A DNA stretch of 64,000 bases from Flavobacteriales bacterium (GCA_018660685.1 JABJJW010000012.1:62001-126000), one strand, 5' to 3'; positions 13 to 62,137 are shown, counted from the first letter of the stretch. A program made the numbers and translations. The notes: generated from the sequence alone by a model not told the origin.

Positions 13-900
13 TCACTTCCGTTTCGGTCTGTGTACAGTAAAGACACGGCTGACGTTGAACCCAAAATGAATATCTCCCGCATCCCACTTCCCATCGGTT
101 TCGGTTAGGAATACGCTTTCGGCCATTCCTCTTGAATTGGTGAAATGGAGTTGGAAGACATGGCCGCCAGTTTCAATGTCAAATCCGACGGACAACGAAT
201 TGGAATACTTTGGATCGAGCTGATCCGGCAAGACATAGTGATACTCCATATTGATTGCAACCCTCCTTGTCAGCTTTACGCGACCGCCAACACCTAGCAC
301 GATGACGTCATTACTTTCAGCTTTTGTCCTCACAAAATTTCTGTGTACCAATGAAGGCATAAACTGAAGTGAGATAGCATCATTGAACTTTCGACCGACG
401 ATGATTTGGTTGGTGTAATACATCCTATTTGTAAAAGGATACGGCAGCAAGGATGTGTCGATCACCTGATTGGCGTCGATATTTAAGTCCGTAACCCATA
501 AAAGAGAAACAGGAACATTCTTCATCCCGGTCTGCTGTCTCAGAATTCGCGCTTTCACAAAGCTGTCGTAGTACTTAATCGCACCACCACTTCTTCCTAT
601 TCCAACATTAAGCCATTCAGTTACCCCATAGTCTAGGCCAATTCGCATAAACGCATTGTCCAAGCCAAAGAGGTTATACGCTCCTGTATTCAGCCTCCCG
701 AAACGGTGAGAAATTTTGAAATCCAGAACACCATGAGAATTCAATTCAAATGAATGACCGTTGATTATTCGTGTAGTCTTAAAACCTGCGGTCGCAAAAT
801 CCTGGGTTGGTTCATCTTCGCCCAATAGATCCAAGAGGTCATCTTGACCAGTTGATGAGAGGGCAAAAGCAAGAAAAGCAAAAACTAAAATCAGGCGCAT
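13..900 (-). CDS. DUF5777 family outer-membrane beta-barrel protein
   Basis: A 295-residue protein with a cleavable signal peptide (about residues 1-19) followed by alternating aromatic/polar beta-strand sequence and no internal hydrophobic helices, typical of the DUF5777 beta-barrel family. The family is thought to sit in the outer membrane; its substrate is unknown. It is the last gene of a minus-strand run starting at 3055 and begins 2 bp after the YceI gene ends, so it is almost certainly co-transcribed with YceI, the OB-fold protein and two heme-motif lipoproteins. The barrel could be a porin or an outer-membrane partner for that electron-transfer set, but this is inference from context. 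The stop lies 12 bp inside the window edge, so the gene is complete. Confidence 0.85.
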   Translation of the reverse strand: MRLILVFAFLAFALSSTGQDDLLDLLGEDEPTQDFATAGFKTTRIINGHSFELNSHGVLDFKISHRFGRLNTGAYNLFGLDNAFMRIGLDYGVTEWLNVGIGRSGGAIKYYDSFVKARILRQQTGMKNVPVSLLWVTDLNIDANQVIDTSLLPYPFTNRMYYTNQIIVGRKFNDAISLQFMPSLVHRNFVRTKAESNDVIVLGVGGRVKLTRRVAINMEYHYVLPDQLDPKYSNSLSVGFDIETGGHVFQLHFTNSRGMAESVFLTETDGKWDAGDIHFGFNVSRVFTVHRPKRK

Positions 901-902
901 GC

Positions 903-1457
903 TTATCGATTGAAGGCTTTCAACTGAGCTTCAACGGTTACATCAACCACTTTCGCAATATTGTCTCGAACCGTATTCGGAATTTCTATGTTATAGTCCT
1001 CAGGTACAATTTTGAATGTAGAATGGATCGCATAGCCACCATCACGACTCTCAATGGTTGCAGCCAATTCAAGTTCTTTGACTACTCCATGAATTTCCAG
1101 TTTTCCTGCAGCTACCACGTTTGTCCCTGAAGGAATATTAGCCATATCAATGCCGTCCAATCCTTGAACGCTGCCCTTAAAAGTCCCCTTGGGATACTTG
1201 TTTGATTCAACGAAGTTTTCGTTAAAGTGCTCTTCCATCAAAGGTTTTTTGAATTCAAACGACTTCATCAGTGCTGCGAACTCAAACTGTCCTGAAGCAG
1301 CATCTAACACGCATGTTAGCTTGTGGTTACGTGCTTCAATATCCTCAACGGACGTCGCTGAAAAGAACTTGACATGTCCATCCCGCGTGAAGTATTTACC
1401 CTGAGCACTCACCACAGATGAGCAGAGTATTAATGCTGATACTAATAGTAATTTCAT
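903..1457 (-). CDS. YceI family periplasmic protein
   Basis: A 184-residue protein with a signal peptide (residues 1-18, ending VSA-Q) and the YceI domain over the rest: an N-terminal GHVKFFSAT segment, a central FKKPLMEEHF-N-x-F-V segment and the late repression-like EIHGVVKELEL strand. YceI proteins are periplasmic lipocalin-like barrels that bind polyisoprenoids or other amphiphiles. It sits between an OB-fold protein (7 bp gap) and the DUF5777 barrel (2 bp gap). YceI is often co-encoded with cytochromes, so a role in carrying a quinone-like or isoprenoid ligand for this operon is plausible but inferred. Confidence 0.92.
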   Translation of the reverse strand: MKLLLVSALILCSSVVSAQGKYFTRDGHVKFFSATSVEDIEARNHKLTCVLDAASGQFEFAALMKSFEFKKPLMEEHFNENFVESNKYPKGTFKGSVQGLDGIDMANIPSGTNVVAAGKLEIHGVVKELELAATIESRDGGYAIHSTFKIVPEDYNIEIPNTVRDNIAKVVDVTVEAQLKAFNR

Positions 1458-1464
1458 ATTTATT

Positions 1465-1896
1465 CTACTTAATAATGCTTCCTCTTTTTAGTTCAACAAC
1501 TCCGCCGGGCAGCATAGATTCTGCATCACCCAAAAATCCAGAGCAAACTCCTTTAACGACAATCTCTGAACTCTCCTCCAATTCTCCCTCAAAAGGGTTT
1601 TGAAGGGTGGCATTCACAACATATAACTCATCCATCGAAATCTTCATTGATGTAATTTGTTGATCCGTTCTCTCTATTGCCAATATCGGGCCATTGATCT
1701 CCAAGATTTGATCCACGTACTTTGCGGTGGCGGCAGTTTCATCATCCAGAAATTCTTGAACTACTTCTTCGCAGTTTAGCTTATGTGCAGCTTCTATATC
1801 AGCTGTGTCATCGTGATCTTTGAAGCTTACTTGATAAGCAACGAGAACGCCAATAATAATGGCTGTTAGCGCTCCAAAAGTGAGGGTACGTTTCAT
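1465..1896 (-). CDS. Membrane-anchored OB-fold (tRNA_anti-like) protein
   Basis: A 143-residue protein with one N-terminal hydrophobic segment (residues 7-24) that could be a signal anchor, followed by a soluble domain with the strand pattern of the extracytoplasmic OB-fold group: a KYVDQILEINGPIL segment, then a late VVVKGVCSGF-like strand. This OB-fold type is common in small Bacteroidota envelope proteins; its ligand is unknown and nucleic-acid binding should not be assumed outside the cytoplasm. It lies 3 bp after the upstream cytochrome-like gene and 7 bp before YceI, so it belongs to the same operon. Family assignment is moderately sure; the function is open. Confidence 0.75.
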   Translation of the reverse strand: MKRTLTFGALTAIIIGVLVAYQVSFKDHDDTADIEAAHKLNCEEVVQEFLDDETAATAKYVDQILEINGPILAIERTDQQITSMKISMDELYVVNATLQNPFEGELEESSEIVVKGVCSGFLGDAESMLPGGVVELKRGSIIK

Positions 1897-1899
1897 AGT

Positions 1900-2319
1900 T
1901 TAATTGTCTTTATATCCATTATCCATCCAATCCAGAATGGTATTGAGTTCATCTTGTTCCAATTCTCCAAAGGGTGGCATATCTCCCGATTCAATTTTAC
2001 CGCGCAAGTTATGTTGCTCGATTCCTTCAACCATCTCCGTGTGAGAAGATAAAGGTATTCTATCGTTAGAATTGCCCGATGAATGACAAGCACTGTTTGC
2101 GCAGCTACCCACAATAATTGGTTTCACATCAACCGACCATTGATTGACCGTATTGGTGTCTTCAAACACAATTGTATCGTGCACAATAATCGTATCGAAT
2201 GGATACAAATCTTCTGCATTATCATAGTAACAACCATTGAACATGGCAGATATCAACCCGATGAGCAGGACGGATATAGCAGCGCGTGTCAGCTTAGTTA
2301 TCCTCTGCTCCACCATCAA
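1900..2319 (-). CDS. c-type-heme-motif lipoprotein (single-heme)
   Basis: A 139-residue predicted lipoprotein: a hydrophobic N-terminus ends at Cys30 (FNGC, a loose lipobox). The mature part holds one heme-attachment-like motif C-A-N-S-A-C-H (CX4CH) after the 'DVKPII-x-x-S' lead-in seen in Bacteroidota cytochromes, and a later D-M-P-P segment that could supply the distal Met ligand. The C-terminal helix ELEQDELNTILDWMDNG matches the terminal helix of cytochrome-c-type domains. The start at 2319 overlaps the previous gene by 26 bp, suggesting translational coupling. It is probably an electron carrier on the membrane surface; heme binding has to be shown because the motif is longer than CXXCH. 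Confidence 0.82.
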   Translation of the reverse strand: MMVEQRITKLTRAAISVLLIGLISAMFNGCYYDNAEDLYPFDTIIVHDTIVFEDTNTVNQWSVDVKPIIVGSCANSACHSSGNSNDRIPLSSHTEMVEGIEQHNLRGKIESGDMPPFGELEQDELNTILDWMDNGYKDN

Positions 2320-3055
2320 TCCAAGCTTTTATTTGTAAAATATGATCTAAATCCATTTTGTCTGTATCCTGGGGCATTTGTGGGAAACCTTGAAGGTGTG
2401 CTATCACCCCGTATAGTGTGTCGTTGTCGGCTTGCGCCTTCACCCCTTGATAATTTGATAAGTCCGCAATCCCAGAGCCACTTTTGTGGCAATCGAGGCA
2501 CTTATAAAACTCCAACAATGGCCTAACGGTTGAGGCATAGGAGACATTGGTCGAATCGCAATCGACTGCGCCGTCTTGAATCCACAGAAAGATTTTTTGC
2601 ATGTCCTTGGCGTCCAGCTGATCCGCTCCTGGAGGAGGCATCCTTTTGGAGGTGTCGGGCGCGGTTATTCTCTGATAGAGTAGGCTATTTGAAGGATCAA
2701 ATGGAATCACAACACCTGAATTCAAAGTTGTATCAAATGTGCTCAGAACAAGGTTGCCTTGCGCTGAATCAACAGAATGACAACCTCCAGTTGACCCGCA
2801 CTTGGCAATAAATAGTGGCTGAATATCTCGTTGAAAAAATATACTATCCTCATCGCACCCGGTTATAACTGGTTGAGTTGGTGGCGTATTATCTGAGTTC
2901 GTATCCACCGGTTGGTCTGGTGGTGGAATATGAACAGTTACCGTTTTTGGCTCGAATGGTTCATGAGTACATGACCCTTGAACTATGACAAGCAAAGCGA
3001 TAACGAGAACAACAATCGATAGTCTCCGAGAAGAGACAGAAAATGTGAATTGCAT
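2294..3055 (-). CDS. c-type-heme-motif lipoprotein (two-heme, planctomycete-type cytochrome fold)
   Basis: A 253-residue lipoprotein with a long hydrophobic leader and a clear lipobox Cys at residue 29 (IVQGSC). Two cytochrome-like modules follow a Pro-rich spacer. Module one has 'RDIQPLFIAKC' leading into a CX5CH motif and a K-R-M-P-P-P-G Met-ligand segment. Module two has the standard C-L-D-C-H (CXXCH) and a later F-P-Q-M-P segment. Each ends with an I-x-x-W-I-x-x-G-A helix. This arrangement matches PSC1-type cytochromes common in Bacteroidota. It is first in a five-gene operon and is preceded by an exact -7 promoter box. A role in envelope electron transfer is inferred. Confidence 0.88.
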   Translation of the reverse strand: MQFTFSVSSRRLSIVVLVIALLVIVQGSCTHEPFEPKTVTVHIPPPDQPVDTNSDNTPPTQPVITGCDEDSIFFQRDIQPLFIAKCGSTGGCHSVDSAQGNLVLSTFDTTLNSGVVIPFDPSNSLLYQRITAPDTSKRMPPPGADQLDAKDMQKIFLWIQDGAVDCDSTNVSYASTVRPLLEFYKCLDCHKSGSGIADLSNYQGVKAQADNDTLYGVIAHLQGFPQMPQDTDKMDLDHILQIKAWIDGGAEDN

Positions 3056-3060
3056 TGACG

Positions 3061-3068
3061 CAAAAATA
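3061..3068 (-). promoter_or_regulatory. Putative -7 box (TATTTTTG) of the cytochrome/YceI operon
   Basis: On the minus strand this reads TATTTTTG, an exact match to the Bacteroidota -7 consensus TAnnTTTG, placed 5 bp before the ATG at 3055. No convincing -33 TTTG is visible at the usual distance. If used, the transcript would start at or next to the start codon. Confidence 0.45.
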
Positions 3069-3186: not shown

Positions 3187-6090
3187 ATGAAGAGCACTCT
3201 GCGAATCCTACTTGTTGTATTTGGTCTCTTTTGGACTCTTTCGTTCAATGCGCAAAACCTTGTTACCAACGGGAGTTTTGAAAATTATTGGCAATGTCCG
3301 AATGGTCTAAGCAACATCACAAAATGCTGGTGGCGTCAACCAATTAGTCACATAGGTTCTGCAGATTATTTTCATGCATGTGCAACATCTACAGCGAACG
3401 ACGTCCCAAACAACATTTTCGGTAGCTCATTAGCAGCCCAAGGTGACGCCTATGTTGGTGGATATTGTATGCTTGGATACACTGGTTCCTACGCGGCATA
3501 CCGAGAATATGTGATGGACACGCTCACCCAGCCATTAGTTGCAGGGCAGCAATACATCGTTTCATTTCAATATAGATTGGGAGACAATGCGCGCTACGCG
3601 ACCGATGATCTTGGATTTTGGTTGAGTTCGGCTCACCCCACAATGACCGGGACACCAAATTACGGTGCGCTAGGAGTGACACCAACCTCGCACAATGCGA
3701 GTGGTAACTATCTAACTAATAACAATGCTTGGGCGACTTATGCCGACACTATTACCGCGTCGGGAGGTGAAACTTATATCACAATTGGGTCTTTCAATGC
3801 TTTACCCGCCGGCATTTTGTACAATACCAGCGCGTCAATTAGCGGTGCATATATGTACTATGACGACGTTTGGGTTGAAGAGTATATGGGAATCGGCGGT
3901 GACTCAAATATTTGCGAGGGTGATTCTGCGATAATTTACGCTTACCTCGAAGAGAGCTTTTTTTGGGTTGAAAGCAGCCAACCAAATAATGTAATCTCGA
4001 CATTGGATACGATAGTTGTCTGGCCAACAGTTAACTCTACTTATTACTGCATTGGCGATTCTACAGGAGATACCTTCTCATGGGATGTGAACATCGTCAC
4101 TTTTCCATCAAATTTCGTTGGAGACGACACAACTGTATGTGATGGTGACACCGTGATCCGGGTAATTAATCTACCCCAGTATACTTTCGCGTGGTCGGAT
4201 GGCAGTACTGATTCTGCTTTGATTACGGCAGACTCAGGTTACCACCATTTGACAATCGAACAATATGGCTGTGAAGCAGTTGATACCTTTCTCGTGGAAT
4301 TCTATCCATTCCCATCTCTTTCTCTCGGAAACGACACGTCAATTTGCTCTTATGATAGCATTACGGTGACTACGGGCCTCGGGGGAACTGTGTCATATTT
4401 ATGGAGTACCGGAAGCATTCAACCGACGATCAGTGTTTCAGATTCCGCCGTGGTTTGGGTGGCAGTGACAAATCAATTTTGTACGCGCGCAGACACAATG
4501 CAAGTGAGCGTTTTTCCAGAAGTTACAATCGATCTTGGTCTTGATGAAGATGTATGTTACGATCCCGACTCGAGTATTACTCCGGTCGCGTCCTTCACGC
4601 AAAACGCTAGTTCATATTCTTGGTCAACTGGACAATCAACTCCTACCATTTCGGTGACGCTGTCAGGAACCTATACAGTCACAGCATCTGGAAACGGATG
4701 CGTTGCTGAAGATTCTGTGGAAATCACATTCCACACTGATCCAGATTTTAATCTCGGCGTGGACACGAGTTACTGTGAAGGAGACACGGTAGCTTTAACT
4801 ATCAATCTTGATCCAGCAACACATACTTTCTTCTGGAATAATGGATCAATCAAACAAACCCAGATGGTTCATAGCGGCAGCCAGGGCGGTTATTGGGCAC
4901 AGGCTTCCAACGGGATATGTGCAATGAGAGATACGATCTATGTTGACCAGTTCGTTCCAATGAATCTTGATTTACCGGAATTCTACATGGCTTGTGAAGG
5001 AGACATCATCAGCATTATCCCAAATACGAACGTCAACCTCTCCTACAACTGGAATACTGGATCCACATCAAAAATTTTACAAGTTGGTTCCAATGGAACA
5101 TATTTTCTTACTGTTACGGACGGATTCTGTTTTGAGAGTGACCAAACATCTGCACTCTTCTTCGACTATCCAGAAATCAGTATTGGAAATGACACAATCA
5201 CCTGCGGTCCTTCTGAGTTGACTTTCGAGGCAATATCCAATATTTCAAGCGTCAACTTCAAGTGGTATAATGGTTCCATTTCAGCGAAACACACCACTTA
5301 TATTGATCGTGATCAGACTATCTGGGCTAAAGCGGTTAATGAGGTATGCAGCACGACTGATAGTATTTACATAACGCTCGAAGAACCGCCAACGGTTCAG
5401 GTAATTGATGACACTCTCCTTTGCGAAGGAAAAACCGCCAAGGTTACCGCAAAAGGCAGCGATGAGTACTCATACAAATGGTCTAATGGAATAGAAGGAA
5501 AGCGATTCGAAACGACAGAACCAGGGACATATGTATTGCTTGTGAATGATAGTGTTTGTACATCGGAATACGATGTTCTCGTGACTGATTTCGTGGTGCC
5601 AACATTCGAAATTACTGGTCCGGAGTACATCTGTCTCGGTGAGCAGATTGAACTCGATGCATCCACACCTGGCATAATGCATTACCGATGGTTTGATGGC
5701 AACATTGGACCAACACATCAAGTGACAGATTTTGGATACTACAGTGTTGAAGGATGGCACGCATGCGGAATTGTCAACGACACAATCTTCATCGAGGACT
5801 GTGAATGCTTCATTCATTTTCCAACAGCTTTCCGTCCTACACCAGAAGGAGTAAACAAGACTTTTGGGCCGAAAGTCGATTGTGAATTCGAGGATTTTAA
5901 ATTCACCATTTATAATCGATGGGGCGAGATCATTTACAAAAGTGAAGTCTCAAACGAATCTTGGGATGGCACTTACCTCAACGAAGCTGTACCAGCTGGT
6001 GCATATGGCTGGATGGTCGAGTACAAAGCGATCAAAAAAGGACAAGAATTCCAGAATGTCAAGCATGGAACTGTCATCGTTCTCCGATAG
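3187..6090 (+). CDS. Giant secreted repeat protein with T9SS type B sorting domain
   Basis: A 967-residue secreted protein: signal peptide (1-22, ending FNAQ), an N-terminal carbohydrate-binding-like domain opening with NLVTNGSFE (about 24-230), then about nine Ig/PKD-like modules of roughly 70-80 residues, each starting with a G-x-D-x-x-x-C-x-G-D pattern and containing a Y-x-W-S-x-G turn. The last ~95 residues (from CECFIHFPTAF, with FTIYNRWGEIIY and WDGTYLN) form the gliding-motility-associated C-terminal (type B) domain recognised by the T9SS. It is likely a surface or released adhesin or carbohydrate-binding protein. A weak -7-like TAACTTTA lies at 3163-3170. It stands alone, divergent from the cytochrome operon. 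Confidence 0.9.
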   Translation: MKSTLRILLVVFGLFWTLSFNAQNLVTNGSFENYWQCPNGLSNITKCWWRQPISHIGSADYFHACATSTANDVPNNIFGSSLAAQGDAYVGGYCMLGYTGSYAAYREYVMDTLTQPLVAGQQYIVSFQYRLGDNARYATDDLGFWLSSAHPTMTGTPNYGALGVTPTSHNASGNYLTNNNAWATYADTITASGGETYITIGSFNALPAGILYNTSASISGAYMYYDDVWVEEYMGIGGDSNICEGDSAIIYAYLEESFFWVESSQPNNVISTLDTIVVWPTVNSTYYCIGDSTGDTFSWDVNIVTFPSNFVGDDTTVCDGDTVIRVINLPQYTFAWSDGSTDSALITADSGYHHLTIEQYGCEAVDTFLVEFYPFPSLSLGNDTSICSYDSITVTTGLGGTVSYLWSTGSIQPTISVSDSAVVWVAVTNQFCTRADTMQVSVFPEVTIDLGLDEDVCYDPDSSITPVASFTQNASSYSWSTGQSTPTISVTLSGTYTVTASGNGCVAEDSVEITFHTDPDFNLGVDTSYCEGDTVALTINLDPATHTFFWNNGSIKQTQMVHSGSQGGYWAQASNGICAMRDTIYVDQFVPMNLDLPEFYMACEGDIISIIPNTNVNLSYNWNTGSTSKILQVGSNGTYFLTVTDGFCFESDQTSALFFDYPEISIGNDTITCGPSELTFEAISNISSVNFKWYNGSISAKHTTYIDRDQTIWAKAVNEVCSTTDSIYITLEEPPTVQVIDDTLLCEGKTAKVTAKGSDEYSYKWSNGIEGKRFETTEPGTYVLLVNDSVCTSEYDVLVTDFVVPTFEITGPEYICLGEQIELDASTPGIMHYRWFDGNIGPTHQVTDFGYYSVEGWHACGIVNDTIFIEDCECFIHFPTAFRPTPEGVNKTFGPKVDCEFEDFKFTIYNRWGEIIYKSEVSNESWDGTYLNEAVPAGAYGWMVEYKAIKKGQEFQNVKHGTVIVLR

Positions 6091-60361: not shown

Positions 60362-62137
60362 TTATCCTTCGGTAGATTCCTCATCTGACACAACTTCTTC
60401 CTCAGGTTCTTGAGCAGCAGCTTCAGCCTTTCGGATATCCTTGATCAATAAGTCGATTTGCTTCTTGCGATCCTTGAGCGCTTGAACTTCCCCTTCAGAC
60501 TTGGCAATCTTATCAAGCAGGTCTTTTTTCAATGGATTGGTATCATCCGAGAACTTGAAGAATGCGAGTTTGTCTTCCAACTGTAAGGAAGAGATATTGG
60601 CACCTTTTATTTTCTGAATAATATCTGCACGTTCATGCATAAGAGTCCGCTCAGCATCAGATTGATTCGCAATTGAATCGAGCTTGTTATCAAACTTCTT
60701 TTTGGCCGCTTCTGCCAAGCTAATTCCAAGCTTCTTATACGCTTGATTAATTAACCCGTCCAACGCCTTTTCCAACTTGTCGTGGAATTTACGATTGACG
60801 TCGCCAACGCTATTCCATTGTTGTTGCCATGAGTCAATCACCTTCTCTCCTTCTTTTTCGATTCCCTTATCGAGCTGAGCCTTGAAGCCCATGACCAATT
60901 CTTCTTTCTTCTGAAGGTTTTGCTTGTGTTCTTTTTCTTCGGCCTTGTAAGATTCCTTTCTACGATTAAAGAATTGGTCGCAGAATTTCCGAAACTCCTT
61001 GAACATCTTGTACTCTTCTTGAGGCAACAATGTCCCGCTCTGCTTCCACTCTCGTTGCAAACCTTTCAGTTGGTTGGCGATCTCGCCCATGTTCTCACCG
61101 CCATGAATCTCCTTGGCACGATCGATGAGCTTTTGTTTGACTTTCCTGACGTCGTCGAAAGCAGAATTGCTCTTTTTCAGAAACTCACCCCTGCGCTCGA
61201 AATAGACATCGCAAGCCTTTCTGAACTCTGCCCATATTTTATCATTCTTACCGCGGCCTGCAAACCCAAGATGCTTCCACTCCTTTTGAGTATCGATAAC
61301 GTCCTTGGTCAGCTTTTGAACTTGCTTCACCTCTTCCAATTCAGTCCCGGCAATTTCTTCCAAACGCGTCACCAATTCTTTCTTCTTGGTGTAATTCTCA
61401 ACATGCTCTGATTTAATTGTCTTTCTGTGCTCGCGGATTCGATCAAAGACTTTTCCAACTGATTCCTTGAACTCATCGCGAATCTTATCCCACTCTTCTT
61501 TAAACGTTGGACCAATTTCGTCCCATTCATCCAAGTACTTATGAACTAGAAAATCCACTTGATTAATCGAGCTTTCATTCTCCAAAAGCTTGATTTCGAC
61601 AATGACACTCTTCTTCAGCTCGAGGTTCTTTTTCAGATCGTTGATCTGAAGTTCCTGGTAAATGTGAATGTTGTAATAGAACTGTTCGATCAATCTGCTA
61701 TACTCAGCTTGAATCTCTCTTCTTTCATCTTTGCCCACAGTACCCAGCTCATTCCACTTCTGCTTTATAGCATTGAAGCGTTGATATGCTTTGGCAATAT
61801 TCTCCTCGTCTTTTATCAGAACATCCAACTCTTTCAAAAGAGCCTTCTTCTCAGACAGGGAATTCGATTGAGCTTCTTTAAAACTCTTCTCAGCCTCCTT
61901 TCGCTTTTCGTGATATAGCTTGACCAGCTCATCAAAGCGTTGATCATGTTCATCTGGAGCGTAAGTGATTTCACTTTCTTCTCCTTCTTCAGCTTGCGCT
62001 TTTGCTTGTGCTTCTTTGGAAGCATTTCGCAATGCATTGAATTTCTCCATCAAGTCATTGTACTTCGTGCGATCAGCAGCGAAGTTTTCCTGATTGACCC
62101 AATTTTGAAATTCGATGACGATTTCTTCTTTAGACAT
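60362..62137 (-). CDS. DUF349 domain repeat protein
   Basis: A 591-residue, almost fully helical protein: a charged N-terminal region, then repeated DUF349 modules (about 70-75 residues each) with W-K-x-x-G-x-x-x-x-x-x-x-x-x-W-x-x-F-[RK]-x-x-x-[DN]-x-[FY]-[FY]-x-x-[RI]. At least five are visible (KQKWNELGTVGKDERREI, LDEWDEIGPTFKEEWDKI, QKEWKHLGFAGRGKNDKI, QREWKQSGTLLPQEEYKM, QQQWNSVGDVNRKFHDKL). Function unknown; the family occurs widely in Bacteroidota. A -7 box is at 62158-62165. Confidence 0.93.
   Translation of the reverse strand: MSKEEIVIEFQNWVNQENFAADRTKYNDLMEKFNALRNASKEAQAKAQAEEGEESEITYAPDEHDQRFDELVKLYHEKRKEAEKSFKEAQSNSLSEKKALLKELDVLIKDEENIAKAYQRFNAIKQKWNELGTVGKDERREIQAEYSRLIEQFYYNIHIYQELQINDLKKNLELKKSVIVEIKLLENESSINQVDFLVHKYLDEWDEIGPTFKEEWDKIRDEFKESVGKVFDRIREHRKTIKSEHVENYTKKKELVTRLEEIAGTELEEVKQVQKLTKDVIDTQKEWKHLGFAGRGKNDKIWAEFRKACDVYFERRGEFLKKSNSAFDDVRKVKQKLIDRAKEIHGGENMGEIANQLKGLQREWKQSGTLLPQEEYKMFKEFRKFCDQFFNRRKESYKAEEKEHKQNLQKKEELVMGFKAQLDKGIEKEGEKVIDSWQQQWNSVGDVNRKFHDKLEKALDGLINQAYKKLGISLAEAAKKKFDNKLDSIANQSDAERTLMHERADIIQKIKGANISSLQLEDKLAFFKFSDDTNPLKKDLLDKIAKSEGEVQALKDRKKQIDLLIKDIRKAEAAAQEPEEEVVSDEESTEG

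Follow-up and report, generated by a model that had tools for sequence, protein, structure and literature searches.

A conserved five-gene cassette groups the DUF5777 outer-membrane barrel with cytochrome-type lipoproteins and a YceI lipocalin in Bacteroidota

Organization of the operon

The window analysed here, a 64,000-nucleotide stretch of a Flavobacteriales genome (GCA_018660685.1; JABJJW010000012.1:62001-126000) that starts at position 62001 of its contig, contains a minus-strand run of five genes extending from window position 3055 to 13, with all ORFs present. The first to be transcribed (3055-2294) encodes a 253 aa diheme lipoprotein matching the Pfam families PSCyt1 and Cytochrome_CBB3, and is followed by genes for a 139 aa small cytochrome lipoprotein (2319-1900; weak match to Cytochrome_CBB3), a 143 aa OB-fold protein (1896-1465; tRNA_anti-like, PF12869), a 184 aa YceI lipocalin (1457-903; YceI, E 2e-14, with a signal peptide recognized by eye) and a 295 aa DUF5777 outer-membrane beta-barrel (900-13; PF19089, E 5e-90). 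The intergenic gaps in transcription order are -26, +3, +7 and +2 bp, and the small cytochrome gene starts either with a TTG at 2319 or an ATG at 2316. A sequence-only reading of this region had described a compact set of five genes, separated by -26 to +7 bp, whose products are all targeted outside the cytoplasm; the ORFs, gaps and Pfam matches bear out the first part, and a lipobox, signal peptide or N-terminal anchor, seen by eye in each protein, bears out the second. The identities that it gave to the anchored OB-fold protein, YceI and the DUF5777 barrel agree with Pfam, and the OB fold and its helix with an AF2 model. None of the five proteins has an NCBIfam model above cut-off.

The operon is flanked upstream by a divergent gene for a T9SS-type CHU_C protein (3187-6090, plus strand) and downstream by a convergent M43 peptidase gene that lies past the window edge, its end at a distance of 1 bp from the stop codon of DUF5777; thus it comprises exactly these five genes. 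A scan for sigma-70 promoters and terminators found sites no more commonly than in shuffled sequence. The sequence TATTTTTG (3061..3068, minus strand), just ahead of the first start codon, is a candidate promoter element by its match to TAnnTTTG, the Bacteroidetes -7 promoter consensus.

Cytochrome-type lipoproteins and heme motif spacing

The diheme lipoprotein has two class-I-type cytochrome c domains, of which the PSCyt1 domain carries CGSTGGCH (CX5CH) and the Cytochrome_CBB3 domain CLDCH (CX2CH), while the motif of the small lipoprotein is CANSACH (CX4CH). The operon thus has three heme motifs in total, with CLDCH the sole classical CXXCH, so that the two lipoproteins with c-type motifs of the earlier description are both present, with the precision that only one motif in three has the classical form. 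Over all loci the 122 cytochrome motifs divide into CX2CH (61), CX4CH (52), CX3CH (6) and CX5CH (3), and a candidate distal Met, defined by a loose pattern, lies downstream in 120 of them. Since the second Cys, the His and the downstream Met candidate are kept where the motifs drift, the sequences argue that these lipoproteins would still bind heme despite their variable spacing. Genes of the CcmC, CcmE and CcmF types are present in the window's own genome.

Among genomes of the window's own genus, spacings of 2, 3, 4 and 5 are all found at the first of the two heme sites in the diheme protein, which reads CGSCH in G004, CMSGCH, CVSGCH or CVTGCH in G002, G006, G007 and G009, CSMSGCH in G003 and CGSTGGCH in the window. 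This CX2CH/CX3CH/CX4CH/CX5CH variation is seen at window positions 2294-3055 and at loci L035, L037-L041 and L044; in L035 (G012) the diheme protein is encoded as two separate ORFs of 117 and 112 aa. In the small cytochrome the mature N-terminus CYYDN..DLYP is conserved, with an acidic stretch after the lipid Cys, and bears only a partial resemblance to the lipoprotein export signals K-(D/E)2, QA-(D/E)2 and SDDFE.

The OB-fold protein and YceI

The AF2 model of the OB protein places a helix at residues 3-24 ahead of the OB fold. In some relatives a lipobox stands in place of this helix, and anchoring is therefore the feature of the protein that is kept. Its closest structural match is 3f1z (Z 11.1, rmsd 3.3, 107 residues). 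The possibility that the protein serves the odd motifs as a heme chaperone in the manner of CcmE was considered and rejected: CcmE itself ranks second (Z 9.4), tied with unrelated OB folds, the C-terminal heme-binding HxxxY of CcmE is found in 0 of 31 OB-protein orthologues, and a dedicated CcmE gene elsewhere in the genome also counts against it. The window YceI has no match among solved structures at E 0.01, so a tunnel and a ligand are taken over from its family, other members of which carry isoprenoid quinones (PMC9113575).

The DUF5777 barrel

The DUF5777 profile match spans the full domain (positions 1-247 of 247, E 5e-90), and an AF2 model built from 79 sequences has 12 strands with a pLDDT of 94. 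In structural comparison it comes closest to KdgM (Z 18.4, rmsd 2.1, 168 residues), NanC (Z 17.6, rmsd 2.7, 187 residues) and FapF (Z 17.6, rmsd 3.7, 215 residues), matches that speak to the architecture of the barrel and not to its function. KdgM and NanC are sugar porins without redox partners, and although they offer the closest barrel architecture (Z about 18) they have no detectable sequence kinship with DUF5777. Sequence searches of solved structures with DUF5777, YceI and the diheme protein returned nothing useful, FoxE appearing at E 0.09 only.

With inside and outside assigned from the alternation of strand hydropathy, not from coordinates, the lumen has a conserved charged lining (R66, R86, K116, K171 and R207; D112 and E243), and H65, F67, H247, F249, F281 and R285 are invariant and outward-facing. 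A hydrophobic channel of the FadL type was rejected on account of this charged lumen and because FadL-type channels are found only among the weaker structural matches.

Conservation of the cassette

Of 41 near relatives, 39 carry DUF5777; at the class level it is found in 134 of 149 genomes and at the phylum level in 115 of 296. We read 81 loci of relatives, drawn from the higher-scoring matches and not at random. YceI lies nearby on the same strand in 68 of them and a cytochrome of the cassette type in 71; 61 loci have both, and 30 have the OB protein. The commonest gene orders are c-Y-B (26 loci) and the window's own c-c-O-Y-B (13 loci), and the distance from YceI to DUF5777 is 70 bp or less for 62 of 69 YceI genes, with a median of 3 bp. 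The outer flanks vary by lineage, the largest recurrent neighbour family from outside the cassette having 8 members. Recurrence across the phylum with differing outer flanks shows that the association is not due to chance; the five-gene set is a conserved cassette, kept together in these loci where scattered orthologues would have spoken against the sequence-only reading.

Among the 149 class genomes DUF5777 occurs in 134 of 145 with COX1 and in 0 of 4 without (p = 7e-5, ignoring kinship); three of the four COX1-negative genomes belong to one family, so the association is weak, and the confinement of DUF5777 to COX1 genomes fits aerobic life only weakly. One contig titled Euryarchaeota (L142, JAACCR010000133.1) carries a gene whose product shares 99% identity with the window DUF5777 over residues 1-95, and is probably a mis-binned Flavobacteriales contig.

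Redox partners of DUF5777

In three genomes (G070, G357 and G390) a CX4CH cytochrome domain is fused in frame to the N-terminus of DUF5777, with the motifs CAQAGCH, CTAVGCH and CTQAGCH respectively. The three fusions span two families, and since those of G357 and G390 share 55% and 53% identity with the G070 protein, an assembly error is excluded. Ten loci have no cytochrome of the cassette type on the same strand as DUF5777. In three of these (L108, L123 and L139) its place is taken by a Rieske protein whose leader is either twin-arginine-like or of the lipobox type, L071 has a different cytochrome c, in L129 the cytochrome gene runs in the opposite direction, two loci (L061 and L103) end at contig edges, and in the remaining three no redox partner is seen. 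In L127 both a Rieske protein and the cytochrome are present.

Paralogous units that lack YceI also have redox content: a cytochrome with EB_dh, Fer4 and NrfD in L068, homologues of the same NrfD and Fer4 proteins in L110, and Fer4 with cytochrome c in L069. The L068 (3408-9873) and L110 (7371-12449) regions form a second conserved DUF5777 unit. A cytochrome and DUF5777 are followed in it by a peptide of 81-87 aa, a Fer4 protein whose leader is twin-arginine-like, NrfD, a protein of approximately 290 aa and a cytochrome c, and in L068 the gene for the EB_dh protein precedes the unit. The whole resembles a small respiratory complex linked to quinol.

At L180 (5470-11137; G390:C379) a run of genes that closes with the cytochrome-DUF5777 fusion may form a unit for the oxidation of copper or of a substrate. 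The genes ahead of the fusion encode a lipoprotein with a CX4CH motif, a protein of 327 aa unmatched in Pfam, MbnP, a diheme protein of the MauG type (CCP_MauG) and a molybdopterin oxidoreductase (Oxidored_molyb). T9SS-tailed proteins with a CXXCH-type motif adjoin DUF5777 in L057, L059, L069 and L071, and in L128 a T9SS-tailed protein with a cupredoxin-like motif, recognized by eye, lies between the OB and DUF5777 genes. The motifs of the former range from CX2CH to CX4CH near the mature N-terminus, and one of the four proteins has a sub-threshold Reeler match; they are possibly surface heme proteins. Together, the fusions, the Rieske substitution, the paralogous redox units, L180 and the T9SS neighbours point to electron transfer, and not cargo transport, as the shared theme, and on gene content a redox role for the DUF5777 cassettes, though predicted, is strongly supported by the fusions and the substituted redox partners.

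Discussion

Lipid-anchored cytochromes with c-type motifs, a YceI protein, an anchored OB protein and a 12-stranded barrel are co-inherited in these genomes, and it is likely that DUF5777 stands at the centre of a redox module. Our best explanation, which we put forward tentatively, is that the products of the cassette transfer electrons outside the cytoplasm, as a module docked at the outer membrane. The lipoprotein cytochromes would bind heme and dock at the periplasmic mouth of the barrel, electrons may pass between them and an isoprenoid quinone held by YceI, both the quinone and the direction of flow being presumptive, and the OB protein could act as an anchor or scaffold. Several observations count against such a relay: the charged lumen offers no hint of quinone passage, L046, L066 and L118 are the loci with no redox partner in view, and 11 of the 145 COX1-bearing class genomes have no DUF5777.

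The closest parallel to the YceI side of this proposal is BcnA, a YceI lipocalin whose gene is linked to that of the cytochrome b561 LcoA and, in alphaproteobacteria, fused to it; BcnA-LcoA mutants build up lipid peroxides, and LcoA was proposed to re-reduce BcnA-bound ubiquinone (PMC9113575). That paper does not mention Bacteroidetes (PMC9113575). The systems share a YceI protein linked to, and sometimes fused with, a heme redox protein, and differ in that the partners here are lipoproteins with c-type motifs, or a Rieske protein, with an outer-membrane barrel and an OB protein in addition; Pfam finds no cytochrome b561 domain among the five operon proteins. By the same logic the lipoprotein cytochromes would replace b561, the barrel would provide the docking site, and the YceI-bound quinol, once re-reduced, would quench lipid radicals, as proposed for BcnA with LcoA. 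Redox upkeep of the outer envelope in aerobic Bacteroidota, for example through re-reduction of YceI-bound quinol, is the purpose that we favour, though at less than even odds, and the fact that it leans on analogy to a system using cytochrome b561 without an outer-membrane barrel counts against it.

The sequence-only reading had also raised the idea of an electron conduit, of which the redox theme is upheld by the fusions and the substituted partners, whereas no support is seen for an Mtr-like wire across the membrane. MtrAB and Pcc systems likewise encode an outer-membrane barrel with cytochromes, but have 8-12 hemes per cytochrome and, in Mtr, a barrel of 26 strands, in contrast to one to three hemes and 12 strands here. 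With at most three hemes from the operon and so small a barrel an Mtr-type conduit is unlikely, and we have rejected it.

A minimal route across the outer membrane is a different matter, and could be imagined as a split form of the cytochrome-porin Cyc2, in which the cytochrome plugs or docks at the barrel and either gives electrons to or takes them from a partner that is soluble or at the surface, for instance one of the T9SS-secreted heme or copper proteins. The cytochrome-DUF5777 fusions have the domain order of Cyc2, in which a small cytochrome precedes the outer-membrane barrel (PMC8406198), the T9SS-tailed CXXCH-type or cupredoxin-like neighbours could supply the partner, and the acidic stretch behind the lipid Cys of the small cytochrome is vaguely like a lipoprotein export signal. 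Nonetheless we consider this route unlikely: the Cyc2 barrel has 16 strands and not 12, the signature AXPXFAR[Q/K][T/Y] ahead of CXXCH is absent, the fusions reading VADLFARSCAQAGCH and VAALFERSCTQAGCH, the operon gives three hemes at most with no known cofactor in the barrel, and DUF5777 is near-universal in ordinary aerobes, beyond metal oxidisers and reducers. The window also differs from Cyc2 in having separate genes, a YceI partner and no known link to iron oxidation.

Trafficking of a lipophilic cofactor or lipid, with YceI ferrying an isoprenoid, DUF5777 as the outer-membrane end and the cytochromes merely regulating or modifying the cargo, takes up the lipophilic-cofactor pathway that the sequence-only reading had also raised and for which YceI leaves room. 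It would account for YceI being almost as frequent beside DUF5777 as the cytochromes and usually directly adjacent, and FadL-type channels do figure among the weaker structural matches. It appears improbable, however, given that redox proteins and not YceI take part in the fusions and substitutions, that most YceI-less units keep a cytochrome, that KdgM, NanC and FapF are better structural matches than FadL, and that the lumen is charged. Quite improbable, too, is the view of DUF5777 as a channel whose substrate, a metal ion or small molecule, is oxidised or reduced by a partner enzyme (cytochrome, Rieske, MauG-type or molybdopterin), as in copper handling of the MbnH/MbnP kind. This view has in its favour the L180 run with MbnP, CCP_MauG, Oxidored_molyb and the fusion, the conserved basic and acidic lining and the 12-stranded solute porins KdgM and NanC, but against it the absence of a metal-handling gene from the window operon, the restriction of MbnP to one locus and the want of an evident conserved Cys/His metal site in the lumen.

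The pairing of YceI with a heme protein (BcnA-LcoA) and of a small cytochrome with a barrel (Cyc2) are already known, and the cassette differs from each in a tested feature. The literature we searched, which left most subscription journals out of reach, held no paper naming DUF5777, alone or with YceI, although about 90% of the class genomes sampled contain the family. The broadest view, that DUF5777 cassettes constitute a new and near-universal outer-membrane redox system of aerobic Bacteroidota, in which a minimal split cytochrome-barrel, together with quinone carried by YceI and with heme or copper proteins secreted through the T9SS, would move electrons to or across the outer membrane while heme motif spacing drifts freely from CX2CH to CX5CH, is one to which we assign a low probability. 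The drift of heme-motif spacing inside one genus provides a natural experiment on the limits of cytochrome maturation. If DUF5777 is the redox partner of the lipoprotein cytochromes, a very common envelope barrel of the phylum would gain a testable function, and the known link between YceI and cytochromes would extend to an outer-membrane device.
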